A stretch of 37,633 bases of DNA, taken from the NCBI GenBank assembly GCA_003157485.1, contig PMJQ01000057.1, positions 3,321 to 40,953 on the forward strand, in the 5' to 3' direction. The position numbers and the translations under genes are program-made. Source of the stretch: Ignavibacteriota bacterium. Its GTDB lineage: Bacteria; Bacteroidota; Ignavibacteria; UBA10030; UBA6906. Below are positions 1,694-37,364 of the stretch, piece by piece; within the stretch, counting starts at the first letter, position 1, and every line of letters begins with the position of its first letter. The notes beneath the pieces are model-generated. The model was not told the origin of the DNA. It ran no database searches and saw nothing but the letters and a program-made list of their open reading frames with translations.

Positions 1694-1757
1694 GAACCAG
1701 TGCGGCCCGTCGTTGCTCCGTCAAGCAACCTGAAGGCCGTCCGGATTTCAATTCCTC

Positions 1758-4120: not shown

Positions 4121-4125
4121 CCGGC

Positions 4126-5304
4126 ATGCTTGAGAACCGCGACCTTGTCATATTGAGCGGCGACTGGAGTCCGGGCAATCCGGCCGCCGTGCAGCATATC
4201 GCCGAGGTCTTCGCGCGCCGCAACCGCATCCTCTGGGTGAGCGGAACGCCGATTCGTACGCCGAGGATGCGGCTGTACGATCTCCGGCGCGTTGCAGACA
4301 AGGCGCGCAAGATGGTCGGGGTCAGGGGAAATCCCGGACGCGCGCCGTCGTCTGTCACCGAGATCCACCCCTTCTTCCTGCCGTACTACGACATCCCTGC
4401 AGTCCGCCGGTTCAACGACGCGATCCTCCGGTCCGCGATCCGGGCAAGTGTACGGGAGCTTGGATTTTCGAGGTACCTCATGATGCCCAGCAATCCCATG
4501 GTGGCCGGCATCGTCGGAACCTGCGGTGAATCTTCAAGCCATTACCTCTGCATCGACGACTACGGGGCAAACGACGATGCTTTCAGGTGCCTGGGGATGC
4601 TCGAGCAGGAGATTCTGCAAAAAGTCGATTCAAGTTTTTCGATGTCCGACGTGCTGATGAACACCAGGGTTCCCCGAAGCGGTGAGAATCATTTCTTTCC
4701 TGAGGGAGTGGACCTGGCCCACTTCACGGCTAGGGGCGGCACTCCGCCGGCAGGAATGGCGGGAATCAAGAAGCCCATCGCCGGGTATTTCGGCCTCCTT
4801 GCGTCCTGGGTTGATTTTGAGCTCATTCGCAGGTGTGCACAGGAATACCCGGATGTATCATTCGTCATCATGGGAGAACCGAAGACCGACATTTCCCTCC
4901 TGCAGGGACAATCCAATATCACGTGTCTCGGCCACGTCCCGTACGACATACTCCCGCGATATGCAGAGTGGTTTGACGTCGGATTGATTCCGCGGCGCAT
5001 CACAAAGCTCACCGTGGCTATGAACCCGAAAAAGCTCCTCGAGTACTTCGCTCTCGGGATGCCGGTCGTTTCGACGAACCTGCCGGAGGTGAGAAAATAC
5101 GGCGACCTTGCCTACGTCGCGGAGGACGGCGGCACATTTGTCAGGATGGTAGGCCAGGCCCTCAGGGAGAGGACACAAGAGCAGGACCGGCGGAGACGGG
5201 CCGAGGCCGAGAGGGCGTCATGGGACTCCATCGCCGACGGCATGGGGTCGGTCATGCAGAGAATTGACGAATCCAAAGCGGCACGACAGAGGACACGCGC
5301 ATGA
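4126..5304 (+). CDS. Glycosyltransferase family 1/4-like (GT-B)
   Basis: MLENRDLVILSGDW..; C-terminal 'MNPKKLLEYFALGMPVVSTNLPEVRKYGD' nucleotide-sugar binding signature. Confidence 0.9.
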   Translation: MLENRDLVILSGDWSPGNPAAVQHIAEVFARRNRILWVSGTPIRTPRMRLYDLRRVADKARKMVGVRGNPGRAPSSVTEIHPFFLPYYDIPAVRRFNDAILRSAIRASVRELGFSRYLMMPSNPMVAGIVGTCGESSSHYLCIDDYGANDDAFRCLGMLEQEILQKVDSSFSMSDVLMNTRVPRSGENHFFPEGVDLAHFTARGGTPPAGMAGIKKPIAGYFGLLASWVDFELIRRCAQEYPDVSFVIMGEPKTDISLLQGQSNITCLGHVPYDILPRYAEWFDVGLIPRRITKLTVAMNPKKLLEYFALGMPVVSTNLPEVRKYGDLAYVAEDGGTFVRMVGQALRERTQEQDRRRRAEAERASWDSIADGMGSVMQRIDESKAARQRTRA

Positions 5305-6077
5305 TAAAATTCCACAACAGGGCATACGACCTCGGATACCTCTGCTACCGCTGGGTTAAGCCCGTGATCGATCCCGTGAAGGCCGCGCGTTCGCTCCCCG
5401 GCTATGCCCGGTACTGGCGCGACTGGTTTCGGTACGGCCGTCTCGAGGGCGCCGAGCACATCGCGCTCATCGACAGCGCACCCCTGATCGGGGAGAACAC
5501 GGCGGTCACGGCCTTCGACCGGCACTATTTTCACCAGGACATCTGGGCGGCCAGGAAGATCAAACGATCGGGCGCGGAGTCTCACGTCGACGTCGGGTCA
5601 CGGATCGAGCTCGTCGGATTCCTCACCGTGATCTGCAATGTCACGTTCGTCGACATCAGGCCCCTCATCGTCGATCTCGAAAACTACAAGGGCTTGAGCG
5701 GAAGCATACTCGCCCTCCCGATGGAGAGCAACTCCGTCAGGTCTCTCTCCTGTCTTCACGTTGCTGAACATATCGGGCTGGGGCGGTACGGGGACCCGCT
5801 GGACCCCCACGGGACCCTGAAAGCGTGCAGGGAACTCGCGCGGGTGCTTGCACCGGGCGGGAATCTCTATTTTTCGCTTCCGGTGGGGAAACCGCGCCTC
5901 TGTTTCAATGCGCACCGGATTCACTCGGTCGGCCAGATCCTGGACTACTTCCGGGATCTGTCCCTCGTCGAACTTTCAGGTATCGACGACGAGAGACGTG
6001 TTATGCTGCAGATGGAGAAAAGCGCGCTGGATAACGCAGATTACGGCTGCGGGTTGTTTCACTTCACGAAGAAATGA
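5301..6077 (+). CDS. DUF268-like protein, SAM-methyltransferase-like fold
   Basis: DVGSRIELVGFLTV..FVDIRP..LPMESNSVRSLSCLHVAEHIGLGRYGDPLDPHGTLKACRELARVLAPGGNLYFSLPVG pattern; ATGA overlap with the upstream GT. Confidence 0.8.
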   Translation: MIKFHNRAYDLGYLCYRWVKPVIDPVKAARSLPGYARYWRDWFRYGRLEGAEHIALIDSAPLIGENTAVTAFDRHYFHQDIWAARKIKRSGAESHVDVGSRIELVGFLTVICNVTFVDIRPLIVDLENYKGLSGSILALPMESNSVRSLSCLHVAEHIGLGRYGDPLDPHGTLKACRELARVLAPGGNLYFSLPVGKPRLCFNAHRIHSVGQILDYFRDLSLVELSGIDDERRVMLQMEKSALDNADYGCGLFHFTKK

Positions 6078-12633: not shown

Positions 12634-14616
12634 TCAGCGGCGGCGGAAAAGTGATTTCGCGATAATCTGCAGGTCGAGCATCAACGACTGGTTCTTCGCA
12701 TAGTACAATTTATACCGCTCCCGTTCGTCGGGATCCATGTCTTCGCGCGAGTGGATCTGAAGAAGGCCCGTGAGACCCTCGGGACCGAGCTCGCTGTCGC
12801 TTCCCGGATATTTCCCGGAGTGTCCGCTCTCCCCGACGGGAAGTCCCACGAGGCTGAGGCGCCCCCGGAGAACATCCGGGAGGAGACGGAGGATCGACCC
12901 CGGCGCGGCCCCTTTTTTCCTGAAGAGTGCCCAGGAAGGATACACGGTCAGGAGTAGCAGCGAGGCAAGGGCAATGTCGGTGGCACGCTTCACGAGCCGG
13001 TTGACCGGACGGTGTATGTTGTATTCGATGTCAATGAGCGGGAGCGTATCGAGCTCGTCGATCCTGGTCTTCCCGATGATCGATTCGAGGCTCCCCGGCA
13101 CGAGGCGGAAATGGATGCTCCGGTTCCTGCTTCGCGCGATGACCGAGAGTATGTTTTCGTACGAGAGTCCATCGGTCGAGAAGATCACATCCCCGACGTG
13201 CCGCTCGTCGATCACCTTCCCCACGTTGTCGATGCTCCCGATGATCTCGACGCCCGCCACTTTCTCCCCGATTCTCCGGCGGCTGGTGTCGATGAACCCG
13301 AGCACGTCATATCCGTCGTCAACCCGCGCGCGGAGCTTTCTGAGGATCTCCTGTGCGGACGGCCCTGTCCCGACAATAACCGTCCGCCTGCCGAAGACTG
13401 TCTTTTTTGCTCCTCCCTGCCCGAACAGAAGGACGGCAAACCGCCACCCGGGAAGAAAGACGAGGCTGAGCAAGCCAGCAATCAGGACGACCCCCCTGCT
13501 GAAGGCAAAGTCCTTGGCGAAAAAGACGGTCGCGGAGATCAGTACGTAGCCGGCCGCAACAGCACCGAACGACCGGTTCACGGCGAAGCGGGACGTCGTG
13601 TACAGCCCCGCCACCGCCGAGAGGAGGACGATGAGCGCGGCGGGGACGAGCCATATCAGGGGATACGCATATGCCGGAAAACTGAAGAGCCCCCCCCGGT
13701 AGATATATTCACCTGCCAGAAGCGCCCCGACGACGAGGGTGCCGTCGAGGACCGCAATCTGGACCGGGCGGGCCAGACGGGCGAGCGACGCCGCCGATGC
13801 CCGCAGCAGGATGCCGAGAGTCAGGAAGAGGAGTATGATCCGTGAGCGGTTGAAGTGCTTCCTGACGAACAACTGCATCGCCTGGTAGAATACCCGGATC
13901 TCGTCGATATCGCTCCTTCGCGTGCTCTCCCCTTTGAAGTGGATGATTTTCGTCGTGTGGACATAGTATACTTTGAACCCGGCCGCGGCGATCCTGTAGC
14001 ACCAATCCAGATCCTCCCCGTACATGAAGAAATCCTCGTCCAGCCCGCCCACGGTGACGTACGCCTCGCGTCTCACCATCATGAACGAACCGCTGACGGC
14101 GTCCACGGGATATGTCTCGTCTTCGGAGAGAAACGTCAGATTGTACCTGCCGAAGATTCTCGATGCCGGGAACAGCGCCGCAAGCCCGAAGATCTTCGTA
14201 AAGGCGACCCAAGGAGTCGGAAAGCTCCTGCGGCACGGGAGCTGGAATGTGCCGTCAGGATTCAACACCCTGCATCCCGCGACCCCAGCATCCGGCACAT
14301 CCGAGAAGAAGCGGAGCATGACCCGCAGGGTGTCCTCCTGAACGACCGTGTCGGGATTGATCAGGAGAAGGAATTCTCCGCCTGCGAGCCGGAGCGCCAT
14401 ATTGTTTGCACGTGCAAACCCGACGTTCGTCGTGTTCTCAAGAAGGCGGACAGCAGGGAATTTCGCCCTGACCATGTCCGAGCTCCCGTCATCAGACGCA
14501 TTGTCAACGACAAATATCTCCCCCTGGATACCCTCCAGGGCACGGCAAATCGATGTGAGGGCGTTTTCGAGGAATTGCCGGACGTTGTAGTTGACGATGA
14601 TGACGGAAAGTTTCAT
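12634..14616 (-). CDS. Fusion protein: N-terminal GT2 glycosyltransferase plus WbaP/WcaJ-like TM and nucleotide-binding-like module with a truncated/degenerate sugar-phosphotransferase tail
   Basis: N-term [35 protein letters not shown] (GT2); multi-[37 protein letters not shown] (CoA_binding_3-like); C-term [28 protein letters not shown], without the KFRSM and DELPQ blocks. Confidence 0.85.
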
Positions 14617-20243: not shown

Positions 20244-21878
20244 TCACGAAATTCCACCGACGAATCTCGCACGCAATCGCATCATGAGTTGTTTGTCGCC
20301 GTCGTTCAGCGCGTACCTCCACACGAACAGTGCGTACGCGGGGAGGAACAGGGCGGCCGCAGACACCCGAACCACGCTGCTCCCGACGGCAAGAGCAGCT
20401 GCGATAAGCAGCGCAAGCAGCACCATCAATGCCGTCCCCCGGGAGGTCCAAAACGCCGCACGCCCTGGGATCCCGGGAAATGCAATATGCCTCCGGACTC
20501 CCCGAAAGAGGAGAATTGCATCCAGCGTCACCCGCACCAGGGAGGCAAGCGCCGCCCCCGCTATGCCGAGTACCGGGATCAGGAGCAGATTGAGTGCCAC
20601 CATGAGCGGCAATTCTGCCGCGTGGTACTTCGCCGTCAGATCCGGCCGGCCGAACGCATGCAGCGCGGTAAAAGGCACCTGCGCTACTGAAGAAATACAA
20701 AAACCGCAGGCGAGTATCCTGAGCGACAGGCTGCTGGCGGCGGAGAACTCCTTCCCCATCCAGAGCGTGAGGACTTCCGGCGCGACGAGTACCAGCACTG
20801 CGGTCAGGGGGAGCGCGATCAGGGCGATGTACAGCACGGATCGAGTGTACAGCGCGCCTGATGTCAACTGACCGCCCGGGCTGACGGTTCCGCCGCTGAA
20901 CACGGGATACAGGGCTGTCGTCAGGCTGAGCGGCAACACAAGCATCCGCATGACAGTCTCCTGAGGTACCGTATAGTAGGCAACCGCCGTGAGAGCAAGA
21001 AATGAACCGATCATGAGCCGGTCAAGATATATAAACAGGGGCGAAACGACCTGGGAGACCGAAACCCACCCTCCAAATGAAAGGAGCCGCTTCGCCAAGT
21101 GGCCGTCCCACAGCCTGATGCCGGTAAAAATTCCCTCATCGAGGGACCTGAGGAGCCAGACCCCGGCGGCAGCGGCAACCACCCTGATGACAACAGTCAA
21201 AAGGACGACATGGAATACGCCGCCGCCCATCAATACGATCGCCACGGAGCCGAGCCACTGTGCAAGGCCCATCACGGCCTGAAACGCGTTCACCATGTCA
21301 AACCGCTGGTAGGCCGACTGGATTCCCCGGATCATGCCGTTCGCGAGCATAAGGGGAATGCCAAAGGCGGCAATCACCAGGGATGCGTATGCTTCTCCGG
21401 CCATCGCTGCCGGAATGTGGAAGACCCCGGAAATCACGGGGCCTATAGCGGCGAGAAGTGCCAGCCCCACGACCGCCCCGACTATGGCACTCAGAGAGAG
21501 GGACGTCCAGCAGATGCGGCGAATCAACGGCCGGTCACCCGCCGCCAGCGCTTCCGCGACATACTTTGTGATCGCGCGGCTCACTCCGAGGTCGAGGAGG
21601 CTGAAGTATCCGACGACTATCCAGATGAGCGAAAGCAGGCCGAATCCGTCGGCCGACAGCTTTCTTACAAGGATCGGAAAACTCAGGAACGAGACCGCGA
21701 TGACAAAGACCTGTGTGAAGAAGTTGTACGCGGTGTTTTTCGCGACGACGCGAAGGTTCCCTGATCCGGGCATTTTCCGCGCATCCGGAGTATCGGGCCC
21801 CGGCGACGGTTCGACGCTTCCGCTACGCATGGAGGCAGGAGATGACCGGAGGGACCATACCCGCCTCTTATTATTCAA
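20244..21878 (-). CDS. Second Wzx-like flippase (start uncertain: TTG 21878, ATG 21830 or a further downstream ATG)
   Basis: NLRVVAKNTAYNFFTQVFVIAVSFLSFPILVRKLSADGFGLLSLIW..; polytopic MOP-like protein. Confidence 0.9.
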   Translation of the reverse strand: MNNKRRVWSLRSSPASMRSGSVEPSPGPDTPDARKMPGSGNLRVVAKNTAYNFFTQVFVIAVSFLSFPILVRKLSADGFGLLSLIWIVVGYFSLLDLGVSRAITKYVAEALAAGDRPLIRRICWTSLSLSAIVGAVVGLALLAAIGPVISGVFHIPAAMAGEAYASLVIAAFGIPLMLANGMIRGIQSAYQRFDMVNAFQAVMGLAQWLGSVAIVLMGGGVFHVVLLTVVIRVVAAAAGVWLLRSLDEGIFTGIRLWDGHLAKRLLSFGGWVSVSQVVSPLFIYLDRLMIGSFLALTAVAYYTVPQETVMRMLVLPLSLTTALYPVFSGGTVSPGGQLTSGALYTRSVLYIALIALPLTAVLVLVAPEVLTLWMGKEFSAASSLSLRILACGFCISSVAQVPFTALHAFGRPDLTAKYHAAELPLMVALNLLLIPVLGIAGAALASLVRVTLDAILLFRGVRRHIAFPGIPGRAAFWTSRGTALMVLLALLIAAALAVGSSVVRVSAAALFLPAYALFVWRYALNDGDKQLMMRLRARFVGGIS

Positions 21879-23028
21879 TGCGAACGCGGTAGAATCGGGC
21901 GACGCGCCGTGCCGCCTTTTGAACGCGGCGTTCGAAAACCGTCGCTCCTTCAGGCCCGAAGACCCCCTGCATCAGGAGCGCCAGGAGCACGGACAACGCC
22001 AGCGTGAGGACACACGCGAGAAACACGATCAGCATCCGCTGCGGCTTCGATTTCTTCTCGGCCGGCACGGCGCGATCCAGCACAAGCAGCACAGGGATGT
22101 CCTTGTGTTCGTTGATCTTTGCCTGTTCATACAGCGGCACAAGGAACTCAATGATCTTTTGCTGAATCGCCACGTTGCGGTACAGGCGGAGCGACTCGAC
22201 GCCGATCCCCGGTATTCCCCCGATCTTCTTGTTGATCTCCCCCACCTCCACCTCAAGCTGCTTCAGCGCCGGGTTGTCCCCCGTCGCGGTCCGCTTTGCG
22301 ATGGCAAGCTCCAGGTCCTTCCGCGCTTTCATGCCGTACAGCTCCGCGATCGGGCCGATCCCTGAGGCCCCTTCCCCCTCCGGGACGATCAGCATTCCCG
22401 TGCGTTCCTGGTACGCCTGGAGCGAATCCTCGGCCCGGCGGAGGTCCGCGTAGATCCCGTCCAGTCTCGTCTCGATAAACTCCCTGTTGCTCCCCGCCTC
22501 CTTCGTCCCGAGCTGAACGCTGATCCCGTTCAGCAGTTCCACGAAATAGTTGGCTATATCCGCCGCCCGCAGAGGGTCCCTGTCAAACACTTCAATCGTG
22601 ATGTTGTCGTCATCCTGGGTATCAAATGCCGTATTTCCTGAGAGCGCCTTTACCGCTTTCTCCATCGAACTGTCGGTAATCCCGTATTCCCCCATCAGGT
22701 TAAATTTCCTGACCACAGCCTCCATCGCCTCCCGGCTCTTCAAAATCGCAAAATAATTGTACGTTCCGCCGCTGCCCCCGAGCGATCGCCGCGCGAGACC
22801 CGGCAGGCCGCGCAGCAGGCTCCCCGCGCTCCCCAGGGCACCGAACATGTCAGGCTCTTTCGGGGGGAGGATCGACGCCGTCGACTTGTACCATTGAGGA
22901 AGAAGAAGGCTCACAACCACCGCCGCCACGGTCACGACAATCACGTTGACCAGAATAAACCGCCGCCATGCCAGCAGGGTTCCAATCACGTTGAAGAGGG
23001 CGCCGCCGGAGGGTGAAGATGGAGTCAT
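21871..23028 (-). CDS. Second Wzz-like chain-length determinant without a kinase domain
   Basis: WRRFILVNVIVVTVAAVVVSLLLPQWYKSTASILPPKEPD..SKPQRMLIVFLACVLTLALSVLLALL; ATG 23028 chosen because the upstream gene ends at 23036. Confidence 0.9.
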   Translation of the reverse strand: MTPSSPSGGALFNVIGTLLAWRRFILVNVIVVTVAAVVVSLLLPQWYKSTASILPPKEPDMFGALGSAGSLLRGLPGLARRSLGGSGGTYNYFAILKSREAMEAVVRKFNLMGEYGITDSSMEKAVKALSGNTAFDTQDDDNITIEVFDRDPLRAADIANYFVELLNGISVQLGTKEAGSNREFIETRLDGIYADLRRAEDSLQAYQERTGMLIVPEGEGASGIGPIAELYGMKARKDLELAIAKRTATGDNPALKQLEVEVGEINKKIGGIPGIGVESLRLYRNVAIQQKIIEFLVPLYEQAKINEHKDIPVLLVLDRAVPAEKKSKPQRMLIVFLACVLTLALSVLLALLMQGVFGPEGATVFERRVQKAARRVARFYRVRIE

Positions 23029-23035
23029 TATCGGC

Positions 23036-24706
23036 TCATTTCTTGTATTGATTGACAAGGAGGACGATGCTGATCGCGACACTCAGGACCGTTGCGGACT
23101 GCGCGATGATCCCGAGATAGTAGCCGAAGGGGTGGTCAGGGACTTTCGGCACCCAGATAAAATCCCCCTCTTCGACGGAAGTGTCGCCGGGATTCAACCA
23201 CTGCCGGCTCCTCGCCTTGATCACCTTGATGTCGCCCCGACGCGAGCGGTCCGTGACGCCGCCGGCCCTCTCGATGTAGCGCCAGACGTCTTCACCGGCA
23301 ATGAACGGAACGTGGCCCGGGCTGACGACCTGGCCGAACACGTAGACGGTCTTCTTCCTGGAGGGAATGATCACCTCGTCCCCTGACTGCAGAAAGACGT
23401 CGCTCGATTGATCGCCGCGCACGAAGAGCTTTACAAAGTCGGTCGTCACCTGCTCCTTCCGCATGCGCAGGGTGGTTTCAATGTAGAAATCGGTCGTATC
23501 GTCGGGTGGGACGCCTCCACGGATGCTCATGAGGCGCTCCGTCTCGACGTCGGACTCCCTGACCGGCTGACGGAGCACCTCCGCGGAAGAAAGAAGGGCG
23601 TCATCGCTGAATCCCCCCGCGGACCTGACAAGTTCGGAGAGGCGCGTGGAATCCCGCGTGATCGGGTACAAACCGGGGAACAGAACTTCCCCCGTGATTT
23701 TCACCCTGTAATCGCCCCGCTGGTCCACGGTTCCCCGAACGAGGATCCGGTCGCCGGGCTGCAGGGGAATATCCGGGACCGTCCCGGCAAGGATTCCCCT
23801 TGCGTCAATCGACGTGCGCTCGCGGATATAGCCCGTACGATCCTGACGGGTGAGCTCGACGCTGTCTTCGCGTGCTCCCGGGGAGAAACCGAACGCGAAT
23901 CGAATCGCATCACTCACGCTGTCCCCGTCGGCAAACTCGAATCTTCCCGGCGCGTTGACCTGGCCGTAGACACCGATCACGTTGCGGTGGACGTCGTACG
24001 GGGGAACGACGACGACGTCCCCCTCTCGAAGGTACGGGTTCCAGCGGTCCTCTTTCAGAGCCAGGAATCTCTGCAGGTCGACGCGGGACTGCGTCCGGTC
24101 GTTATGCCGGAGAATTATGCGGCGGGTCGACATGAGGAACTTTATGTTGTCAAGTTCACTCTGCGCCTCCCCCGGCATGAGCTTATTCGCCGCTTCGAGG
24201 ACTTTGTCCACCCTGTTGTAGGCAGCCATCGTGTACGAGCCGGTGTTCAGCACCTCCCCCTCCACGGTAACAACGATCGGGCGGGGATTCACCAGTGTCA
24301 TTGTCAGCTCGCTTTCAAGGTAGCGTTTCCTGACCGCGGCGGCGACTTTCTCCTTGGCGGCGGCAAGCGTCATTTGCGAAACCTGGACCTCGCCGACTGT
24401 CGGGATGATCAGCGTCCCCTCCGGCGTTACCGTGAGCTCGAAGGCAAGGGGCTTGCTGCTCCAGATATTGACCGAGAAACCGTCCGACGGTCCCACAAAA
24501 TAGTTCGCGGGATTGATGACGGACTCGAGCGCGGGCCCGCGGGGCTGTACCATGACCGTGCCCTGCGAAACCCTGTCTTTGTCGCCGGGGAAATCGGTCT
24601 CCGAAGTCTCTCTCCTCGTCTGCGCCGTGACGCACGTAAACGACAGTGCCACGAACACAAACATCAGCAGCCGCGGCACACGCCGTGTGAGTTCTTCAGG
24701 TTTCAT
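23036..24706 (-). CDS. SLBB-domain polysaccharide export protein (Wza-like)
   Basis: Signal-peptide-like N-term; YFVGPSDGFSVNIW..VTPEGTLIIPTVGEVQVSQMTLAAAKEKV (Poly_export); repeated SLBB-like blocks (VYGQVNAPGRFEF, ITGEVLFPGLYPI, VFGQVVSPGHVPF); C-terminal hydrophobic helix. Confidence 0.93.
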   Translation of the reverse strand: MKPEELTRRVPRLLMFVFVALSFTCVTAQTRRETSETDFPGDKDRVSQGTVMVQPRGPALESVINPANYFVGPSDGFSVNIWSSKPLAFELTVTPEGTLIIPTVGEVQVSQMTLAAAKEKVAAAVRKRYLESELTMTLVNPRPIVVTVEGEVLNTGSYTMAAYNRVDKVLEAANKLMPGEAQSELDNIKFLMSTRRIILRHNDRTQSRVDLQRFLALKEDRWNPYLREGDVVVVPPYDVHRNVIGVYGQVNAPGRFEFADGDSVSDAIRFAFGFSPGAREDSVELTRQDRTGYIRERTSIDARGILAGTVPDIPLQPGDRILVRGTVDQRGDYRVKITGEVLFPGLYPITRDSTRLSELVRSAGGFSDDALLSSAEVLRQPVRESDVETERLMSIRGGVPPDDTTDFYIETTLRMRKEQVTTDFVKLFVRGDQSSDVFLQSGDEVIIPSRKKTVYVFGQVVSPGHVPFIAGEDVWRYIERAGGVTDRSRRGDIKVIKARSRQWLNPGDTSVEEGDFIWVPKVPDHPFGYYLGIIAQSATVLSVAISIVLLVNQYKK

Positions 24707-26901: not shown

Positions 26902-28920
26902 TCATGACTTGACGCTGACGGCGGCTTTCTCCATGCTCACCCTGGCGATCGCCTCGTCGGCTTCGGCAGAGGGGTCGGGCATCCGGAACTGCGGGACGAG
27001 CTTCGAGAAAAGCCGCAGGACGATGCTCTCCGAGCCCTGATGGGCCGCCTCGATGAGCGTGTCGACATCCATGCCAAGCGGGTTCTCGTAGCCGGGCATG
27101 CCGCTCACGATATGCTGGTGGATGCTGACATTCCCGTCCCCCATCGGCACCGTCACGTCGCGGTCCATGCTGTTGTACGAAACGAGGATCTTGTCGTGCG
27201 TCGTCCGCTCGATCCGCGCCCCTTCGTAGAAGAGCTCTTCATACATCTTTTCACCGGGTCTCAGGCCCGTGAACACGATGTCGATGTCCCGCCCCTCCTC
27301 GAGGCCGTTCAGCCGGATCAGATCCCGCGCCAGCTCGACGACGGGAATCTGCTCTCCCATGTCGAGGACGAACGTCTCACCGCCGGTCCCCATCGTGGCC
27401 GCCTGGAGGACGAGCTGGACCGCTTCCGGGATCGTCATGAAGAATCGCTTGACGTCAGGATGGGTCACCGTGACCGGCCCGCCCATCTTGATCTGGCGTT
27501 CAAACACCGGGACAACGCTGCCGCTGCTTCCGAGCACGTTGCCGAAGCGGACAGTGACAAACGTCCTGCCGACCCGCATCGCTGCATTCTGCACGATGAG
27601 TTCCGCGATCCGCTTCGAGACGCCCATGATGCTCGTCGGGTTCACCGCCTTGTCGCTCGAGATCATCACGAAGCGCTGGACCCCGTGGCGTTCCGAGAGC
27701 TCCACGAGATTCCGCGTCCCCAGCACATTGTTCGTCACGGCTTCGGAAATGTTGACTTCCATCAGGGGGACATGCTTGTGCGCTGCCGCGTGAAAGATGA
27801 CCGCCGGCTTGTGCTGCGCGAAAACGCTGTCCATCCTGTCCTTGTCCCGGATATCCGCAATAACGGTGCGTACGGCGACGCCTCTCTTGGGGTGTTCCAT
27901 GAGCTCCTGCGCGATCCGGAATATCGAGTTCTCGCCGTGGCCGACCAGGATGAGTTCCGTCGGGCCGAATTCCTTGATCTGCCGGCAGATCTCCGAACCG
28001 ATCGAACCTCCCGCGCCCGTGATCATAACGCGCGCGCCCTTGAGGAGTCCGACGACGCTCTTCGTGTCGGTCTTCACGGGTCCGCGGCGCAGAAGATCCT
28101 CCAGCTGAATGTTCCTGAACTGGTCGACGCGCGCCGTTCCCCTGAGGATCTCGAACAGCGCGGGGACGATCTTGCTCGTCACGCCCTGTTCCTTGCACAC
28201 CTGGACGACCTCCCGGACTTTCTTCCCGGACGCCGCCGGCATCGCGATGATCACCTGCTGCGCATGGTGTTCCTTCAGAAGCTTCGTGAGCTCCTTGAGC
28301 GTTCCGAGAACGGGGACGCCGTGAATGTTCTTCCCCACTTTCTCGAGGTTGTCGTCGATATACCCCACCGGCAGAAGGCCGAGATGCCGGTTGACCTGTA
28401 GTTCTTTCACGATCATTGCGCCCGCCACGCCTGCGCCCACGATCAGGGCCGGTTTCATCGATACGCTTTCCTCCGAACGGGTCTGCCACGACTGCACGAG
28501 CCTGATACTGAAGCGCATCGCGCCGACAAGAAGCATTCCCAGGAGCCCGTCAAGCACGGGAAGCGAACGCGGGAAACCGTACGGGATGATGCCGAGGGGA
28601 GTGAAGAGGGCGAAGAAGAGCACAACTTCGACAAGCGCGGCCAGAATCGTCGCGCGCAGAAGCGTTGCAAGCTCCTGGACGCTCGCATAGCGCCAGTACT
28701 GGGCATACAGCCCCGTGACATAAAAGATGGCGAGCTTGCAGATCCCGTCCAGCGCCATAAACATGGACAGGGGGTTGATGTACTGGCGGAGCTCGTGCAG
28801 ACTTTCCGTACGGATATAAAAGGAGATCCAAGGAGCAAGCGAGATCAGCAGGATATCCACAACGAGCAGATCCCGATTCCTCAGCCTGGAGAGCATTTCC
28901 AAACGTTTTTTCATTATCAC
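26902..28920 (-). CDS. Membrane nucleotide-sugar 4,6-dehydratase (CapD/PglF/FlaA1-like)
   Basis: Four N-terminal TMs; VMITGAGGSIGSEICRQI..HAAAHKHVPLME..MISSDKAVNPTSIMGVSKRIAE..VRFGNVLGSSGSVVP. Confidence 0.95.
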   Translation of the reverse strand: MIMKKRLEMLSRLRNRDLLVVDILLISLAPWISFYIRTESLHELRQYINPLSMFMALDGICKLAIFYVTGLYAQYWRYASVQELATLLRATILAALVEVVLFFALFTPLGIIPYGFPRSLPVLDGLLGMLLVGAMRFSIRLVQSWQTRSEESVSMKPALIVGAGVAGAMIVKELQVNRHLGLLPVGYIDDNLEKVGKNIHGVPVLGTLKELTKLLKEHHAQQVIIAMPAASGKKVREVVQVCKEQGVTSKIVPALFEILRGTARVDQFRNIQLEDLLRRGPVKTDTKSVVGLLKGARVMITGAGGSIGSEICRQIKEFGPTELILVGHGENSIFRIAQELMEHPKRGVAVRTVIADIRDKDRMDSVFAQHKPAVIFHAAAHKHVPLMEVNISEAVTNNVLGTRNLVELSERHGVQRFVMISSDKAVNPTSIMGVSKRIAELIVQNAAMRVGRTFVTVRFGNVLGSSGSVVPVFERQIKMGGPVTVTHPDVKRFFMTIPEAVQLVLQAATMGTGGETFVLDMGEQIPVVELARDLIRLNGLEEGRDIDIVFTGLRPGEKMYEELFYEGARIERTTHDKILVSYNSMDRDVTVPMGDGNVSIHQHIVSGMPGYENPLGMDVDTLIEAAHQGSESIVLRLFSKLVPQFRMPDPSAEADEAIARVSMEKAAVSVKS

Positions 28921-29561
28921 AATCCCCCGATTGTCCGCAGTATGATCCTCAGATCCGACAGGACCGTCCGCCGTCTGAGGTACGCAATATCGATCGACAA
29001 CTTGTGCGGCAGGATCTTCCCGAGATAGAGTTCCTCGGTGTTGCCGCCCGACAAAAGCTCTTCCTCGTTTCTGTAGTGAAGCGACGCCGGGCTCGTGATG
29101 CCCGGCCTGTACCGGAGAATCTCCCGCTGGTCAGGCGTGTAGCGCGCAACGTACCCGGGATTCTCCGGCCTGGCGCCGACGAGACTCATATCTCCCTTAA
29201 ATACATTCAGGAGCTGAGGAAGTTCGTCGAGTTTGTATGCACGAAGCAGGCGTCCCACGCGGGTCACGCGGCTGTCTCCCCTGACCGTCAGTCCGCCCCC
29301 CGCAACATCCGCTCCCTGCACCATACTCCGAAATTTGTATATGGAAAAGAACCTGCCTTCGATTCCCACCCGGCTCGAACGGTAGAAGACCGGGCCGCGA
29401 TCCTGGAGCTTCACTGCAGCCCCGATGACGAGAAAAAGCGGCGACAGGAAAACCAGTCCGGCTGCGGATGCAATAATGTCGACGATGCGCTGCGCAAATG
29501 CGCTGTGAACAGGAGGCGCACTCCGTGCGCCTCCGCCAGAAGGGTGATCAAATATCGACAT
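28917..29561 (-). CDS. Short PglC-like bacterial sugar transferase (polyprenyl-phosphate phosphosugar transferase)
   Basis: AQRIVDIIASAAGLVFLSPLF..DRGPVFYRSSRVGIEGRFFSIYKFRSM..YKLDELPQLLNVFKGDMSLVGARPENP. Confidence 0.95.
   Translation of the reverse strand: MSIFDHPSGGGARSAPPVHSAFAQRIVDIIASAAGLVFLSPLFLVIGAAVKLQDRGPVFYRSSRVGIEGRFFSIYKFRSMVQGADVAGGGLTVRGDSRVTRVGRLLRAYKLDELPQLLNVFKGDMSLVGARPENPGYVARYTPDQREILRYRPGITSPASLHYRNEEELLSGGNTEELYLGKILPHKLSIDIAYLRRRTVLSDLRIILRTIGGL
29512..29534 (-). other. Perfect 9-bp inverted repeat in the first codons of the sugar transferase
   Basis: Plus strand GGAGGCGCA-CTCCG-TGCGCCTCC; lies at about codons 10-17 of the gene starting at 29561. Confidence 0.6.
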
Positions 29562-29621: not shown

Positions 29622-30581
29622 TCAATGGGTTACGGCCCGGACCGGCTCGCCTGAGCGCTCCCTGTACCAATCGACGGTCCTCCGGAGGCCCGCCCGGAAC
29701 TCCACAGAGGGCGCATACCCCAGTTCGCTTGTCACCAGACCAATGGCGGCGAAGGAATGTTTGATATCCCCCGCTCGAGGTTTCTCGAACACGGGTGTGA
29801 TGGAAGTGCCCAGGATCACGTTGATCTCGGCGACAAGTTGGTTCAGGGAGATCCTGTCATGGCAGGCGCAGTTCATGGCAAGCCCCTGCCGGCAGGGCGC
29901 GCTTCCGGCACGGAGATTCGCATCGACCACGTTGGAGACAAACGTGAAATCACGCGTCTGTTCGCCGTCGCCAAAGATGACCGGCTGACGTCCGCCCAGC
30001 ATCGCACGTATGAATTTGGGTATCACCGCCGAATACTGGGACGCGGGATCCTGCCGCGGCCCGAAGACGTTGAAATACCTGAGCGCCACCGTTTCCATCC
30101 CGTACAGTGACGCGAACACCCGGCAGTAATGCTCGGCTGCGAGCTTCGACACCGCATACGGAGACTGCGGATTGGGGGTCATTCCTTCGTGTTTCGGCAG
30201 CTCCGGCGTATCGCCGTACACCGACGAGGAGGACGCATAGACTACGCGGCGAACGCCGGCGTCTCTCGCGGCATACAGGATATTCAGGGTGCCGTCCACG
30301 TTGACGGCGTTTGAAGAAATCGGATCCCGCACAGACCTGGGGACGGACGGGAGCGCCGCCTCGTGAAAGACGACTTCGATGCCCTGCACGGCCTCCCGCA
30401 CGGTGTGATAACTCCGTATGTCCCCTTCCACGAGCTCGATGTCTCCCCCCAGGCCTGAAAGGTTTTCGCGCTTCCCCGTCGAAAGATTATCGAGAACGCG
30501 GACGCGATGCGCCCCCCCGACAAGCGCTTCGACGATATTGGACCCAATGAATCCGGCACCTCCGGTGACTAATGCATGCAT
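29622..30581 (-). CDS. NAD-dependent nucleotide-sugar epimerase (WbpP/VipB-like SDR)
   Basis: MHALVTGGAGFIGSNIVEALVGG..LDNLSTGKRENL..ALPSVPRSVRDPISSNAVNVDGTLNIL..YASSSSVYG..YAVSKLAAE. Confidence 0.93.
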   Translation of the reverse strand: MHALVTGGAGFIGSNIVEALVGGAHRVRVLDNLSTGKRENLSGLGGDIELVEGDIRSYHTVREAVQGIEVVFHEAALPSVPRSVRDPISSNAVNVDGTLNILYAARDAGVRRVVYASSSSVYGDTPELPKHEGMTPNPQSPYAVSKLAAEHYCRVFASLYGMETVALRYFNVFGPRQDPASQYSAVIPKFIRAMLGGRQPVIFGDGEQTRDFTFVSNVVDANLRAGSAPCRQGLAMNCACHDRISLNQLVAEINVILGTSITPVFEKPRAGDIKHSFAAIGLVTSELGYAPSVEFRAGLRRTVDWYRERSGEPVRAVTH

Positions 30582-30634
30582 GTGACGTCCCTGCTTTTGT
30601 GTGTGAAATGTCTGATTTCCCTGCAATCCGCCGT

Positions 30635-31795
30635 TCAGCGGCGGTGCTCCGCGACAATTGCGGTGACGGCATCGACAACGCTCTCAACGTCTTCGTCGGA
30701 CATTCTGGAAAAGATCGGCAGCGATACCTCGCGCATATACTCCCGGTGCGCGACGGGCAGGTCCGACTCCCGGTATCCGAACGTCTCACGGTAGTAGGGA
30801 TGGATGTGGAGCGGGATGAAGTGGACGCTCGCGCCGATGTTCCGATTCTTCAGCTCCTCCATGAACCGGGCGCGGTCGATCCGGAGCCGGTCGAGGTTCA
30901 GTCTGAGCATATAGAGGTGCCACGCATGCTGCGCATCCCCGGAGTCCGCAGGCACCTGCGTTTCTCCTACGGACGAGAACGCCTCATTGTATTTCAGGGC
31001 GATCGCCTTACGCCGCTCGTACATTCTCCCGGCTTTCCGGAGCTGCGCAAGACCCATCGCGGCCGCTACGTCGGTCATGTTGTATTTGTATCCCGGCGCG
31101 ATGATTTCGTAGTACCACGACCCTTCAGCAGTATAGCGTTTCCACGCATCCTTGCTGATCCCGTGCAGCGCCATGATCCGGCACCGCTCCGCCAGCGCCT
31201 CGTTCTCCGTACAGATCATCCCCCCTTCGCCCGTCGTGATCGTCTTCGTCGCGTAGAAGCTGAAACAGGTTATTTCGCTCAGAGCGCCGATCATGCGCCC
31301 TTTATATATTGAGGGAAACGCGTGCGCGGCGTCCTCGATCACGGGAATCCCGTGATGTGCCGCGACGGCATGCACGGCGTCAATGTCAGCCGGGAGCCCG
31401 GCGATGTGCACGGGCATCACCGCCTTCGTCCGGCCCGTGACTGCACGTTCGATCAACGCAGGATTGATGTTCAATGTCCGGGGCTCGACGTCGACAAAGA
31501 CCGGCCGGGCGTCGAAATAGCGGATGACCTCCGCCGTCGCGGCAAACGTATACGGCGTCGTTATCACCTCGTCGCCGCGCTTCAGTCCTATCGCGTCCAG
31601 CGCGAGGTGCATGGCGGCGGTGCAGGAATTGACAGCGATCGCATGCTTCGCGCCCACGACGGCCCCGAATTCCGCCTCGAACTTTTTCGTCTTCGGTCCG
31701 GTTGTCACCCAGCCGGACCGGAGGGTTTCTTCAATCTCCCGGAATTCTTCGCCGTCAAGGTCGGGGAGGGCAAATGGAAGGAACTGTTGTCTCAT
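30635..31795 (-). CDS. DegT/DnrJ/EryC1/StrS aminotransferase (ArnB/PglE-like)
   Basis: FLPFALPDLDGEEFREIEETLRSGWVTTGPKTKKFE..VNSCTAAMHLAL..IPVIEDAAHAFPSIYKGRMIG..FYATKTITTGEGG. Confidence 0.94.
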   Translation of the reverse strand: MRQQFLPFALPDLDGEEFREIEETLRSGWVTTGPKTKKFEAEFGAVVGAKHAIAVNSCTAAMHLALDAIGLKRGDEVITTPYTFAATAEVIRYFDARPVFVDVEPRTLNINPALIERAVTGRTKAVMPVHIAGLPADIDAVHAVAAHHGIPVIEDAAHAFPSIYKGRMIGALSEITCFSFYATKTITTGEGGMICTENEALAERCRIMALHGISKDAWKRYTAEGSWYYEIIAPGYKYNMTDVAAAMGLAQLRKAGRMYERRKAIALKYNEAFSSVGETQVPADSGDAQHAWHLYMLRLNLDRLRIDRARFMEELKNRNIGASVHFIPLHIHPYYRETFGYRESDLPVAHREYMREVSLPIFSRMSDEDVESVVDAVTAIVAEHRR

Positions 31796-31819: not shown

Positions 31820-32839
31820 TCACCATTGTGCCGCAGGCTGATCCCCCCACCGGTTCCGGAACTTCACAAGGCCTCTGAGAAACCCGAGGCCATAGGAGAA
31901 ATGAAGCGCCGCATAGGCCGTCGGGAGCAGAATCAGCACGTCGCGGTCGGCCCCCCGCGCCGTGAGGAGTGACGCAAGGATATTTGTCGCCATATACGCG
32001 ATCAGGATCGCCCCCAGAGTGAACAGGCCGGCGGCTGGAGCGGGGATGCAGAGCGCCGCCGCCGCACAGAGAGACGCGACAAGCGCCGCGGGCACGAATT
32101 GACGCGCGCTCATCTGCATGGGATGTTTCTGAAGCACGCGCACCTTCCAGTAACCGTACTGGTAATACTGGCGCCAGAGCGACCGGAGGGAGCTCCGGCT
32201 GAAATACTCGGACCGGACATCGGAGGCCAGAAGAAGTTTCGCCCCGAGCTTGCGGAGCCGGTAGTTGTATTCATCGTCCTGGTTCCGGACGAGCTCTTCG
32301 TCGTAGGGCCCGGCACGCTGGACGATTGCGCGGGTGTAGGCCGGAAAGGGGACCGTGTCCGCGAGCATCGTGCGGTCGGTGATCGTGCGGAATGCCGAGC
32401 CGCCGACGCCAAACTTCGAACTCATCGCCAGCGCGATGACGCGGGCGACGCGCGTCGAGCCCACGGTGTGCACCGGCCCACCCACGCCGTCGACACCGTC
32501 GTTTTGCAGATGGCCGACGCAGCGACTGACGTAATCACGCGCAATCGTGCAGTGCCCGTCAACGCGCACGAATATGTCTCCGCGCGCCCGCCGGAGGGCG
32601 ATGTTCATCCCCACCGGAACGATTTTCCCCGGGTTGTCAAGAAGAATAATATTCGGTGAACGGGACTGCATGGAGAGGACGATCTGCCGCGTATCGTCCG
32701 TCGACATCCCGTCCACGACAAGGATCTCCATCCTGTCCTGATCATAGTCCTGGGCCAGAACAGCCTCGAGGCTTTCCCGGATAATCGCACCCTCGTTCCG
32801 GATCGGCATGATGACGCTCAGAAATGGCAGGGCGGTCAT
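31820..32839 (-). CDS. GT2 glycosyltransferase (ExoA-like, C-terminal TMs)
   Basis: FLSVIMPIRNEGAIIRESLEAVLAQDYDQDRMEILVVDGMSTDDTRQIV..LDNPGKIVPVGMNIALRRARGDIFVRVDGHC. Confidence 0.94.
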   Translation of the reverse strand: MTALPFLSVIMPIRNEGAIIRESLEAVLAQDYDQDRMEILVVDGMSTDDTRQIVLSMQSRSPNIILLDNPGKIVPVGMNIALRRARGDIFVRVDGHCTIARDYVSRCVGHLQNDGVDGVGGPVHTVGSTRVARVIALAMSSKFGVGGSAFRTITDRTMLADTVPFPAYTRAIVQRAGPYDEELVRNQDDEYNYRLRKLGAKLLLASDVRSEYFSRSSLRSLWRQYYQYGYWKVRVLQKHPMQMSARQFVPAALVASLCAAAALCIPAPAAGLFTLGAILIAYMATNILASLLTARGADRDVLILLPTAYAALHFSYGLGFLRGLVKFRNRWGDQPAAQW

Positions 32840-32845
32840 AGGGCG

Positions 32846-33763
32846 TCACTCTCCCCGCGCGGACGATGGAGCGGTGCGCTTTGCCCGGCGCAGCCGGTCG
32901 GTGAGGCGGTACGGGGCGAGCACGCCGCGTATTTTGGCGCGAAGAACCGGTGGGGTGTCCAGCGCGTGCGCTTCCACACGCGGCAGCGCAAGGAGGTCGT
33001 CCCCCGGCCCCGCCATGCCAAGGTCGGTCGTGACCGCAAGACGGAAGCCCGCCCCGGCCACCGCCGCGATATACTGGTCCGTCACCTGACCGAGCCTTCT
33101 GCTCCCATACGGGTACGAGTACGCCCTCCCTGCGGATTCTCCGAGGCGTTCGACAAGAATTGCGCGCGACCGCCCGGCCTCCTCGTCAAGCTGCATACGC
33201 GTGCTCGCCAATCCGTTGCGATGCGTGTGAGAGTGGGCGCCGACGTCGACGATCCCGGACGACATGCACTGCTCCAATTCGTTCCATGTTATGGGGCGCC
33301 ATGCCTCTTCCGTCGTCCGTCCGGCGTTGGCGAGGGACCAGGCGTCAAAGGGCATCGGTCCCTCCCGGCCGACCGCGTCCGTGACAACAAAAAGCGTCGC
33401 CGGGGCCGCATAGTGCAGGAGAACGGGGAGCGCCCGCGAGGAGAAATTCGCATAGCCATCGTCAAACGTGAGGCACACGAGCGGCCGCCGGCTCTCACGG
33501 TCTTCCGCCAGGCGTGCGGGGAGATCCGCGAGTGGGATGATCTCTGCCGCCGACGCGAGCGCCGCGACCTGCCGTTCGAACATCACCGGGCTGACGTTCC
33601 AATCGTCGAGGCGCGGATCGACGAACGGAAGATCCGCAATCCTATGATAGACGAGTATGCACGCCGAGCGCCCGCCGGGGGGCGTCGCCACCGCGGCGCC
33701 GCATGAAGACGCAAGGCCCGCCGTTCTCTTCAGAAACCGTTTCACGGTGATCTTCCCGATCAT
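32846..33763 (-). CDS. Polysaccharide deacetylase (NodB homology domain)
   Basis: ILVYHRIAD..LVCLTFDDGYANFSSRALPVLLHY..VDVGAHSHTHRNGL. Confidence 0.94.
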   Translation of the reverse strand: MIGKITVKRFLKRTAGLASSCGAAVATPPGGRSACILVYHRIADLPFVDPRLDDWNVSPVMFERQVAALASAAEIIPLADLPARLAEDRESRRPLVCLTFDDGYANFSSRALPVLLHYAAPATLFVVTDAVGREGPMPFDAWSLANAGRTTEEAWRPITWNELEQCMSSGIVDVGAHSHTHRNGLASTRMQLDEEAGRSRAILVERLGESAGRAYSYPYGSRRLGQVTDQYIAAVAGAGFRLAVTTDLGMAGPGDDLLALPRVEAHALDTPPVLRAKIRGVLAPYRLTDRLRRAKRTAPSSARGE

Positions 33764-35187
33764 AAGGGCCCCGCAGGAGGGACGGACCCGGATGACCGTG
33801 CGGCGGCGGGAATTCTATTGACGACCGCGCGAAATTTCCCGTTCGCAGACCGGGGGATCCTCTCCACGGGCTCAAGCGTCACGCGAATCTCCCCCATCCG
33901 CGCCCGCAATCGTTCGACGATCGATTGTCCCGCTTCCGCAGTGTAAGCGTCGGTCGGAACGTACAGGACGGTCACGTGATCGACCCCATCCTGAATGATC
34001 TGCGCCTCGCGCACGGGGAGGTTCCCCTTGAAGATCGTATCAAGGCGCCCCACGGGCCTTCCGTCGACTGTGCGAAGGACGTCGTCCGATCTCCCTTCGA
34101 TCGAGCTGAGTGAGGGGAGCAGGCGCCCGCACGCGCATGCAAATTCCCGGGGGGGACGCGTCGCGCGGTCTCCGACACGGTACCGTATCAAGGGCATGTC
34201 GGGATTCATCAACCCCGTGCATACGAGGTCGCCGCTTTGTCCAGCCGGGACCGCGGTCTCTCCCTCAAGGATCTCCACAAATCCCACCTCCGGCCAGAGA
34301 TGCATGGTCCCGTGGCCGCATTCACCCGCCGCAACGGCGATTTCGGTCATCCCGTATGTCTCACGCACGGGACATCCGAACGCCGCGGTGATTACCTCCC
34401 GTTGATGCGCGTACAGCGGCTCCGCATTCGTGACGGCAACGACCGGCCGCACACCGGTCATCTTGAGCCGGAGCATCACGTCCGCGAGCGCAAAAAGGGA
34501 CGATGAATAGCCCCACACATATCTGACCCCGTACCGCCGCATCGCATCGAGATACCGGGGAATGAATTCCGGCGACAGATGATATGACGACATATACAGC
34601 TGGCGGAGGCCCGCGTTCCAGACCCAGAACGGCGGGGTGCGTTGTCCCACCGGCGTCACGAGCTGGCCTCCGAGGATCGCCCACCGGTCATAGAGTGATA
34701 TCCCGTACCACCGTCTCCAGCGCGCCTCGAAGACGGCGTACCAGTTTCTCACCGTCTCCCTGGTAAACCACATGTCGAGCGGTTTTCCCGTCGTCCCGCT
34801 CGTATGCTCGTGAAACATCCTGGCGGGCGAACAATCGTCCGCAATGAAGGCTCTCGCGTTCCGCCGGATTTCCTCTTTCTCAAGAACCGGCCAGTGATCC
34901 AGGTATTCCGGAGACCTCAAGTCCCCCCGCCGGCGCCTTTCCGCCCAGAGCGCACGGTAGTACGGGACGTCATTTGCGGCCCTCCTCAAGAGAAACCCGA
35001 GGCGGGAATCCTGCCACGCCGTCCACTGCGCCTGCGTCCATGATTCCCGTGATAGCGCCTCGGCCACGAGGCGCTCGGTATCTCCGGAATATCGCCAGGC
35101 CCGGAGATAGTATCCTCTGATGCTTGCGACCGCGGATCGGACCGGCGCGGGGGACTCGTTGTAGAGCTTCATCACCGTGTCGTTCAC
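33760..35187 (-). CDS. PaaK/CapK-like AMP-forming ligase (phenylacetate-CoA ligase family)
   Basis: HEHTSGTTGKPLDMWFT (P-loop-like AMP-binding), VRETYGMTEIAVAAGECGHGTMHLWPEVGFVEI; GTG start at 35187 overlaps the upstream stop, ATG at 35172 is the alternative. Confidence 0.88.
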   Translation of the reverse strand: MNDTVMKLYNESPAPVRSAVASIRGYYLRAWRYSGDTERLVAEALSRESWTQAQWTAWQDSRLGFLLRRAANDVPYYRALWAERRRRGDLRSPEYLDHWPVLEKEEIRRNARAFIADDCSPARMFHEHTSGTTGKPLDMWFTRETVRNWYAVFEARWRRWYGISLYDRWAILGGQLVTPVGQRTPPFWVWNAGLRQLYMSSYHLSPEFIPRYLDAMRRYGVRYVWGYSSSLFALADVMLRLKMTGVRPVVAVTNAEPLYAHQREVITAAFGCPVRETYGMTEIAVAAGECGHGTMHLWPEVGFVEILEGETAVPAGQSGDLVCTGLMNPDMPLIRYRVGDRATRPPREFACACGRLLPSLSSIEGRSDDVLRTVDGRPVGRLDTIFKGNLPVREAQIIQDGVDHVTVLYVPTDAYTAEAGQSIVERLRARMGEIRVTLEPVERIPRSANGKFRAVVNRIPAAARSSGSVPPAGPL

Positions 35188-37364
35188 AGGCCGCCGCTCC
35201 CCGGATTGCTCCGCGGGCCGTCGGCTGGATACTCGAGCGACCGGAGGAGGGTCTCCCACTGCGGGATGGTGATGGACCAGTCGAACTGCTCCACCTTTTT
35301 CCGCGCATTGCGCGAAAGGCGCCCGGAGAGTCCTTTCTCAGCAAGCACCCGGCTCACGGCACGTGCGAGGGAGACCGCGTCGCCGGGTTCGGCGAGCAGA
35401 GCATCTTCGCCGTCGGCAAGCAAATACGGGAGCCCCCCCACATTTGTGCTCACGACGCACAGGCCGCACGCCATGGCCTCCATCACGCTTACCGGCGTGT
35501 TATCGACGTTCGTCGTATTCAGAAAGATGTCGAACCTGTCGAGCCAGCCGGGCACTGTCGCCTTTGTGACTCCCCCCGGAAATTCGATCCGGTCCTCAAC
35601 GCCCAGCTCCCTGGCGACGGCCCGCGCGGCCTGATACGTGCCGTCCCCCTTGTCACGACCCACCATCGTCATCCGGACGTCCGGATGTTCCCGGACGAGC
35701 CCGGCAAGGACCCTGGGCGCAAGCGCGGGATTGTAGATCTCGTGAAACGCCCTGAGCCAGATGATGCGCGGCTGCGCGACTGAACGCTCACGGTAGCAGT
35801 ACTGATGCAGGTCAAGCGAATTGGGGAGAAGGACCGATCCCGCGCAATAGGGATTCAGCCGTTCCCTGAGGTACTCCGACGGCACGACGACCGCGGCGGC
35901 CGACGTGAGGAGCCGGCGGACGCGCCCGGGCCACTTCGCCGCAAACTGGGGGAGGTTTCCCCCGCGCAGCGTGAGGATGTACCGTTTTCCCGCGCGCCGC
36001 AGAACCCAGCAAACGGCTTCCGCCCAGAGGAAGGCATCCCCGCTGAAGACGTCGACGTGGGCGAGCCGGTATCTCTCCCGCAAACTCCATGTTCTCCATA
36101 CCATGTCCGCGAGCTTGGGGAGACGGCGGGTTTTGCGCGACGTCGTGAATATCTCCCATCCCGCCGCGGCAAGGTGACCTGCCACGTCTTCGCTCAACGA
36201 ATTTGCGCCGGTCACCGCCGAGATAAAATTCCCCACGAACAGGACGGGAAACACGCCGGACTCGCGCACAGCCATCCCGGCGGCACGGGGGGTCATGCTC
36301 TCAAACAGCGCTTCCCATCGAGGAAGCGTCGCCGACCAGTCATATTCCTGTGCTTTCTTCCTCGCGTTCCGCGAGAGCCGCGCGGCCAGACCGGCGTCCG
36401 TCAGGAGCCGGCGGATCGCCTGCGCAAGGGACGCCGCATCGTCAGGCGGAGAGAGCAGCGCATCCTCGCCGTCGTCGAGCATGTACGGGATACCGCCCAC
36501 ATTCGTGCTCACGACGCACAGGCCGCTCGCCATTGCTTCGAGCACGCTCACCGGCGTGTTGTCCACGTTCGTCGTATTCAGGAAGATGTCGGACCGGTCA
36601 AGGAGTTGAGGCACCTCTTCTTTCGGCACTCCTCCAGAGAACTCTATGCGCTCCGCAACGCCGAGTTTCTTTGCCAGCGCCCGGGTTGCACGATACGTGC
36701 CGTCCCTCCGGTCCGCCCCCGCCATCGTCAGACGAATGTCAGGGAATTCTCCGGCAAGCTCGGCGACGACCCGCGGCGCGAGCAGGGGGTTGTAAATCCC
36801 GTGAAATGCACGGAGCCATATGATGTGCGGCCGGAGAGAGTTCCGTTCACGGTACCGGTAACCGCTGAGATTGAGCGCATTCGGCACGCGGATGCATCCT
36901 GAGAAAGAGGGCTTCATGCGCTCCTGCAGGTAGCACGAAGGGGTCGTTACAAGTGACGCCGACTGAAGGAGACGCCTCACCCGCCCCGGCCAGCGCCGGG
37001 CAAATTCCGGGAGATTGCCACCGTGGAGCGTCAGCGCATACGGCTTCCCCGCCCGCCGGAACACCCAGCAAACGGCCTCCGCCCAGATGAACGCATCGCC
37101 GCTGAAAATGTCCACATGCCCGAACCGGTACCGGCGGCGTTCCCGCCACGCGGTGGCCATCATGTTCCAGAGCCGGGGGAGGCGCGCAACGTGCCCCGAC
37201 GTCGTCAGGATCTTCCATCCCCGTTCCCGGAGGGCCACCGCGAGATCGTGGCTGTACATGCTCGCACCCGTGATGCTCGAGAGGTAGTTCCCGACGAAGA
37301 GCGCGCTCCGCTCTCCGTCCTGCGCATCGGAACGCTGCTTTTTCTGCACCGTCTTTTCGCTCAC
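35184..37364 (-). CDS. Tandemly duplicated GT4-type glycosyltransferase (two full-length GT-B copies in one polypeptide)
   Basis: Copy 1 (LFVGNYLSSITGAS..FLNTTNVDNTPVSVLEAMASGLCVVSTNVGG..WEALFESM) and copy 2 (LFVGNFISAVTGAN..FLNTTNVDNTPVSVMEAMACGLCVVSTNVGG..WETLLRSL) align end to end with essentially no gaps. Confidence 0.93.
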   Translation of the reverse strand: MSEKTVQKKQRSDAQDGERSALFVGNYLSSITGASMYSHDLAVALRERGWKILTTSGHVARLPRLWNMMATAWRERRRYRFGHVDIFSGDAFIWAEAVCWVFRRAGKPYALTLHGGNLPEFARRWPGRVRRLLQSASLVTTPSCYLQERMKPSFSGCIRVPNALNLSGYRYRERNSLRPHIIWLRAFHGIYNPLLAPRVVAELAGEFPDIRLTMAGADRRDGTYRATRALAKKLGVAERIEFSGGVPKEEVPQLLDRSDIFLNTTNVDNTPVSVLEAMASGLCVVSTNVGGIPYMLDDGEDALLSPPDDAASLAQAIRRLLTDAGLAARLSRNARKKAQEYDWSATLPRWEALFESMTPRAAGMAVRESGVFPVLFVGNFISAVTGANSLSEDVAGHLAAAGWEIFTTSRKTRRLPKLADMVWRTWSLRERYRLAHVDVFSGDAFLWAEAVCWVLRRAGKRYILTLRGGNLPQFAAKWPGRVRRLLTSAAAVVVPSEYLRERLNPYCAGSVLLPNSLDLHQYCYRERSVAQPRIIWLRAFHEIYNPALAPRVLAGLVREHPDVRMTMVGRDKGDGTYQAARAVARELGVEDRIEFPGGVTKATVPGWLDRFDIFLNTTNVDNTPVSVMEAMACGLCVVSTNVGGLPYLLADGEDALLAEPGDAVSLARAVSRVLAEKGLSGRLSRNARKKVEQFDWSITIPQWETLLRSLEYPADGPRSNPGSGGL

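Follow-up and report, generated by a model that had tools for sequence, protein, structure and literature searches.

A 726-aa open reading frame on the minus strand of the window (the whole 37,633-nt stretch of DNA analysed here) carries two complete GT4-type glycosyltransferase modules in one polypeptide, the frame across their junction being taken as assembled. Judged by the comparison of its two halves, this protein is a real tandem duplication in which both copies have been preserved. We consider it somewhat probable (at roughly 0.57) that the protein is a dual-module retaining enzyme of GT4 type which, by analogy with the systems discussed below, would extend a lipid-linked repeat unit by two sugars in succession. 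The architecture is uncommon but not unprecedented, and no paper came up in a literature search on ‘two GT4 domains’.

Two diverged copies in one reading frame

The frame runs from a GTG start at 37364 to a TGA stop at 35186-35184, and both the frame and the window as a whole are free of N. A first-pass annotation, which did not state the strand, had proposed that the protein consists of two tandem full-length GT4 copies, and self-alignment of the translation bears this out. The halves share 214 identities over 343 aa (62%) without a gap (E = 3e-161), a single offset of 353 residues leaves 217 of 373 positions identical, and the motifs quoted in that annotation are found in both halves. At the DNA level, the copies lie 1,059 nt apart throughout and include three long blocks of 72-73% identity.

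The way in which the copies differ is informative about their age. Nucleotide identity across the 343 aligned codons is 64.9%, which breaks down to 0.711, 0.781 and 0.455 at first, second and third codon positions, and each half has the same G+C content (64.3%). Synonymous divergence is near saturation (dS ~1.64) and dN is 0.29. The low identity at third positions, together with the resulting dN/dS of ~0.18, points to two long-diverged copies that have both been constrained at the protein level. A mis-joined recent repeat would show a different pattern of codon-position identities. Recent duplication or gene conversion is ruled out by the value of dS (~1.6) and by the longest in-register identical run, which is only 22 nt.

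A search for single-copy homologs in relatives had been suggested in the first-pass annotation, and 44 such relatives were used to build a tree. Modules A and B are sisters in this tree (support 100/99), their branches measuring 0.42 and 0.41, and a larger tree that includes flavobacterial-type gene pairs agrees. The duplication thus arose within this lineage, and not by the merging of two pre-existing subfamilies. Flanking genes are 69-91% identical to those of another genome of the same genus (G001), which marks the region as native. A chimera of two strains created during assembly was considered as the source of the duplication and rejected, because the halves are sisters, the sequence is without N and the flanking operon matches the same-genus genome to this extent. 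On these sequence comparisons, the protein is the product of an old tandem duplication, with A and B each under purifying selection. Between the modules, the N-terminal acceptor-side domain is 59% identical vs 69% for the other domain; when pairs within the family are ranked by this ratio, A and B come only at the 78th percentile, and a switch of acceptor read from the domain divergence was therefore dismissed as not significant.

Fold and active-site residues of the modules

Three Pfam families (PF00534, PF13692 and PF13524) match above their gathering scores in two stretches of the protein. The modules were modelled apart with AlphaFold2; an alignment of the single-copy relatives onto the full protein covered only module B. 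Prediction for each half, which had been named earlier as a useful check, gave a confident GT-B fold with a pLDDT near 93 in both cases: 92.7 for module A (pTM 0.89) and 92.9 for module B (pTM 0.90), each from 34 sequences. Foldseek comparison with the PDB placed BshA, PimA, MshA and sucrose-phosphate synthase at the top for both halves, with TM scores up to ~0.79. As predicted by these models, both modules are intact GT-B folds of the GT4 type. The best NCBIfam match is EPS_EpsE (NF041876), a GT4 of an exopolysaccharide pathway, at 187.7 bits summed over the two stretches. We did not accept this equivalog assignment, as the score is far under the curated cut-off of 400 bits.

BshA (3mbo, 2jjm) provides the closest solved fold, with TM scores of 0.76 for A and 0.77 for B against 3mbo. 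The residues reported to be essential in it are H118, T120, K209, E280 and E288 (PMC10361700). According to profile and family alignment, the equivalent residues are H114, G116, Y191, D268 and E276 in module A, and R467, G469, Y544, D621 and E629 in module B, where the pairing of Lys209 with Tyr derives from the profile alignment and not from superposed coordinates. Among the 44 single-copy relatives, the first of these columns holds H in 32, R in seven and N in five, the second G, the third Y and the fifth E in every relative, and the fourth D in 43 and E in one. BshA differs from the window protein in being a single module, with 19% identity, and at four of its five essential positions most or all members of the window protein's own GT4 family have another residue. 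The donor site of this family is possibly altered relative to BshA, as far as aligned residues can indicate.

The first-pass annotation had also drawn attention to D-x7-E in both halves, where GT4 enzymes usually have E-x7-E. The motif is indeed present in both, but its special status is not borne out, given that 43 of the 44 single-copy relatives have D-x7-E and only one has E-x7-E. We therefore reject it as the mark of an unusual or dead enzyme specific to the 726-aa protein; it is a trait of the whole family of relatives. GX7E occurs in GacB, a characterised and active GT4-type enzyme (PMC6802508).

Two further observations concern the family as a whole. An invariant R-x5-YNP signature (R185/Y191 in module A and R538/Y544 in module B) is present throughout the 44-relative family where BshA-like GT4s have the catalytic Lys. 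In addition, the equivalents of T120 and E280 are G and D across the family.

Operon setting and distribution among relatives

The duplicated gene is part of a polysaccharide operon whose features are collected in the table. The GTG start of the following ligase gene overlaps the GT4 stop codon by 4 nt (GTGA, 35187-35184), which indicates translational coupling. From their domain matches, the export genes appear to form a Wzx/Wzy-type context. Upstream of the duplicated gene, and beyond the window, lie a gene for a Wzy_C protein, further GT4 and GT2 genes, and two further deacetylase genes.

Features of the tandem GT4 gene and its operon (positions in the window)
Feature	Positions	Strand	Basis
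GT4 module A, residues 1-361	36282..37364	-	Pfam PF00534/PF13692; AlphaFold2; start GTG 37364
Junction between the homologous cores, residues ~358-370	36255..36293	-	Holds ATG 36275 and a C6 run (36292-36287)
GT4 module B, residues 364-726 plus stop TGA	35184..36275	-	62% identical to A; AlphaFold2; in-frame ATG 36275
CapK/PaaK-like adenylate-forming ligase	33760..35187	-	PF00501; NCBIfam AMP-ligase matches under cut-off; synteny
Polysaccharide deacetylase	32846..33763	-	PF01522; start overlaps end of ligase gene by 4 nt
GT2 glycosyltransferase, conserved operon member	31820..32839	-	PF00535; synteny
DegT/DnrJ-type sugar aminotransferase	30635..31795	-	PF01041; synteny
NAD-dependent sugar epimerase/dehydratase	29622..30626	-	PF01370
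Small priming phosphoglycosyl transferase (Bac_transf), starts lipid-linked glycan	28917..29561	-	PF02397; synteny
CapD/PglF-type nucleotide-sugar 4,6-dehydratase	26902..28920	-	PF02719; 91% identical over 518 aa to same-genus L062
OPX exporter	23036-24706	-	Part of export block 20244..24706
Wzz	21871-23082	-	Part of export block 20244..24706
Wzx-like flippase	20244-21878	-	PF01943, PF02563/PF10531 and PF02706, jointly for export genes 20244..24706

The window contains two polysaccharide clusters, at 494-6077 on the plus strand and at 14624-37364 on the minus strand, each with its own Wzz. Between them are genes of housekeeping type (tadA, prfA, nadC and accA by eye; DUF1385 by Pfam). A gene at 12634-14616 on the minus strand encodes a 660-aa protein in which an N-terminal GT2 domain is combined with CoA_binding_3 and with a Bac_transf domain reduced to its C-terminal part, so that a GT2 is joined to a shortened priming transferase.

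Outside the flavobacterial group, nearly all relatives have a single member of this GT4 family ahead of the CapK-like ligase gene, so that the extra module in the window is a gain. The order GT4, ligase, GT2 recurs among these relatives in Acidobacteriota, Chloroflexota, Omnitrophota, KSB1 and the window's own family. None of the 42 loci in a GTDB contig scan has two full copies of this GT4 in one open reading frame. No other self-fusion was recovered in 1,907 genome searches among relatives, the order, the phylum and four other groups (some genomes being counted twice), where the best few candidates were scored per genome and groups were sampled, such that this absence is not proof. Long frames in G707, G793 and G1319 proved to be stop-to-stop extensions without a second GT4.

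Separate pairs of GT4 genes do exist. They were met in a second family of the phylum (probably Flavobacteriaceae), where 204 genomes matched and 12 of these did so twice. Eight of these 12 loci were read, and seven have adjacent separate genes (genomes G363, G940, G952, G1008, G1019, G1155 and G1164; loci L086, L127, L128, L129, L131, L135 and L136), while the eighth has two genes ~800 nt apart. Six of the seven adjacent pairs overlap or abut, with ATGA in G363 and G1155 (ATGA loci L086 and L129) and the others in G952, G1008, G1019 and G1164. The G940 pair was considered as a second self-fusion on the basis of a 732-aa open frame and rejected, because a TGA and 123 nt part its two genes. These pairs resemble the window protein in placing the same GT4 family twice in series in a polysaccharide operon. 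They differ in that the copies are separate open reading frames, are 31-38% identical to the window copies and are followed by a Bac_transf-type gene. Moreover, the first copies of the pairs form one clade in the tree, which indicates that their duplication is older than, and independent of, the one described here.

Other fusions involve the same GT4 family. In the corresponding operon of G001, this GT4 is joined to one from another subfamily in an 860-aa protein (L062:7594-10176, minus strand), with a linker of ~100 residues and a second half that is ~26% identical to the window modules; it stands ahead of a weakly similar ligase-like gene. In Bacteroidetes MedPE-SWsnd-G1, this GT4 and the CapK/PaaK-like ligase share one 806-aa open reading frame (L036:5986-8400, plus strand), which suggests joint action of the GT4 and the CapK-like protein, whose role is poorly understood.

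Competing explanations and a proposed function

The existence of a single polypeptide depends on the junction, where one indel, whether genuine or an error, makes the difference between a fused protein and two coupled genes. Homology in module A extends to residue 357 and module B would have its own start at ATG 36275, so the fusion abuts two near-complete proteins with a very short linker. It is quite improbable, in our estimation, that the organism carries two translationally coupled genes and that an assembly error of 1-2 nt, or a very recent indel, merely gives the appearance of a fusion. In support of such an error, ATG 36296 just upstream of the junction is overlapped by a TGA in the +1 frame that creates ATGA exactly at this point, two flavobacterial-type pairs show ATGA overlaps at the same place, a C6 run lies nearby, and the genome is a draft in 239 contigs. 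However, the in-frame homology is gap-free up to residue 357, and +1-frame stops occur once per 32 codons, making one near the junction not improbable by chance; the ATGA could be the relic of a coupled gene pair or could be due to chance. The genes of the window are intact, and the window itself is an N-free stretch between two 2-N scaffold gaps (G000:C107:3319-3320 and 40954-40955) that look like short-read scaffolding, for which indel errors would be few. The earlier statement that the protein is not an assembly artefact therefore stands for the duplication, on the strength of 62% identity and the lack of N, but not in full for the in-frame join, which hangs on a few nucleotides. Likewise, the ATG at 36275 is in frame, as had been noted, but the separate short product proposed from it is disfavoured by poor ribosome-binding pairing (-2.2 vs -6.3 kcal/mol for the main start), an argument whose weight is limited if, as may be the case, the phylum relies little on SD pairing. 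At another contig gap (L066:18206-18207), near-identical sequence is found on both sides, representing a small assembly duplication.

It seems unlikely that only one module is catalytic and that the other serves as a structural or regulatory pseudo-dimer partner or as a binding domain. Module B has Arg467 at the catalytic His position where A keeps His114, and B evolves faster in a relative-rate test with the outgroup G001/L015 (41 vs 24 unique changes, chi2 4.45). Yet the difference is not significant with the four other outgroups of the five used, and the tree branches of A and B are equal, whereas degenerate modules usually show relaxed constraint. Module B retains D621, E629, R538 and Y544 as in single-copy relatives. 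Close relatives share 48 fixed columns, of which 46 are preserved in A and 43 in B, a degree of conservation compatible with each module catalysing its own linkage. Arg467 was rejected as proof that B is dead, given the single-copy relatives with Arg or Asn at this position, and the substitution is tolerated in the family. Furthermore, two GT4 steps in series seem to have been reached in three or more ways, and this speaks for a second catalytic step rather than a second copy with only a structural role. A different role, as a processive polymerase whose modules take turns in making a long homopolymer, is very improbable. Polymerases of the WbdA type do carry two GT modules in one chain (PMC11231755), but they belong to ABC-transporter loci. 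The locus studied here encodes Wzx-like, Wzy-like, Wzz and OPX proteins, and no Wzm/Wzt pair or WbdD was found among the proteins scanned, which were part of the locus ORFs. Because the locus looks like a Wzx/Wzy-type system, such a polymerase is less likely than two successive transfers.

Two successive transfers by one protein have precedent in KpsC (PMC10148158) and WbdA (PMC11231755), dual-module glycosyltransferases in which each module forms a distinct linkage. KpsC has two retaining modules in tandem in one chain, each adding one linkage, and acceptor and linkage specificity reside in the N-terminal domain of each module (PMC10148158). Unlike the window protein, it is a Kdo transferase (retaining beta-Kdo) and not a GT4, and it acts on a conserved glycolipid terminus in an ABC-transporter group 2 capsule system. 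WbdA, the mannosyl polymerase of E. coli O9/O9a and K. pneumoniae O3, also combines two modules in one polypeptide, both GDP-mannose-dependent and one per linkage type (PMC11231755), but it is an O-antigen polymerase of an ABC-transporter pathway and is coupled to WbdD. The suggestion of the first-pass annotation that the fusion is a bifunctional enzyme adding two sugars thus holds in part, as the likeliest reading given these precedents and the separate gene pairs elsewhere.

Under the two-sugar reading, the tandem duplication of one GT4 gene was followed by an in-frame fusion. The priming transferase would start an undecaprenyl-diphosphate-linked repeat unit, onto which modules A and B, each with its own active site, would transfer one sugar apiece in succession. 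Their donors are probably the same or similar and their acceptor positions different, and the finished unit would be handled by the Wzx/Wzy-type system. Fusion would fix the stoichiometry and proximity of two steps that other bacteria assign to two translationally coupled genes. We put forward more tentatively, as a possible refinement, that a covalent homo-tandem of GT4 modules in a Wzx/Wzy-type pathway, from a GT4 branch in which the donor site is altered (Y is invariant in place of Lys209 of BshA, and the first Glu is replaced by D), makes a specific two-sugar block, the acceptor being handed on from the one module to the other.

If true, the protein would be a natural case in which duplication, specialisation and fusion of a glycosyltransferase lengthen a glycan by one sugar, and this would be one route to a repeat unit with an additional sugar. 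The GT4 family concerned occurs as a single gene and as a coupled pair, and it is also found fused to itself, to another GT4 or to its CapK-like neighbour. This range of states makes it a good family in which to compare how fusion affects glycan assembly.
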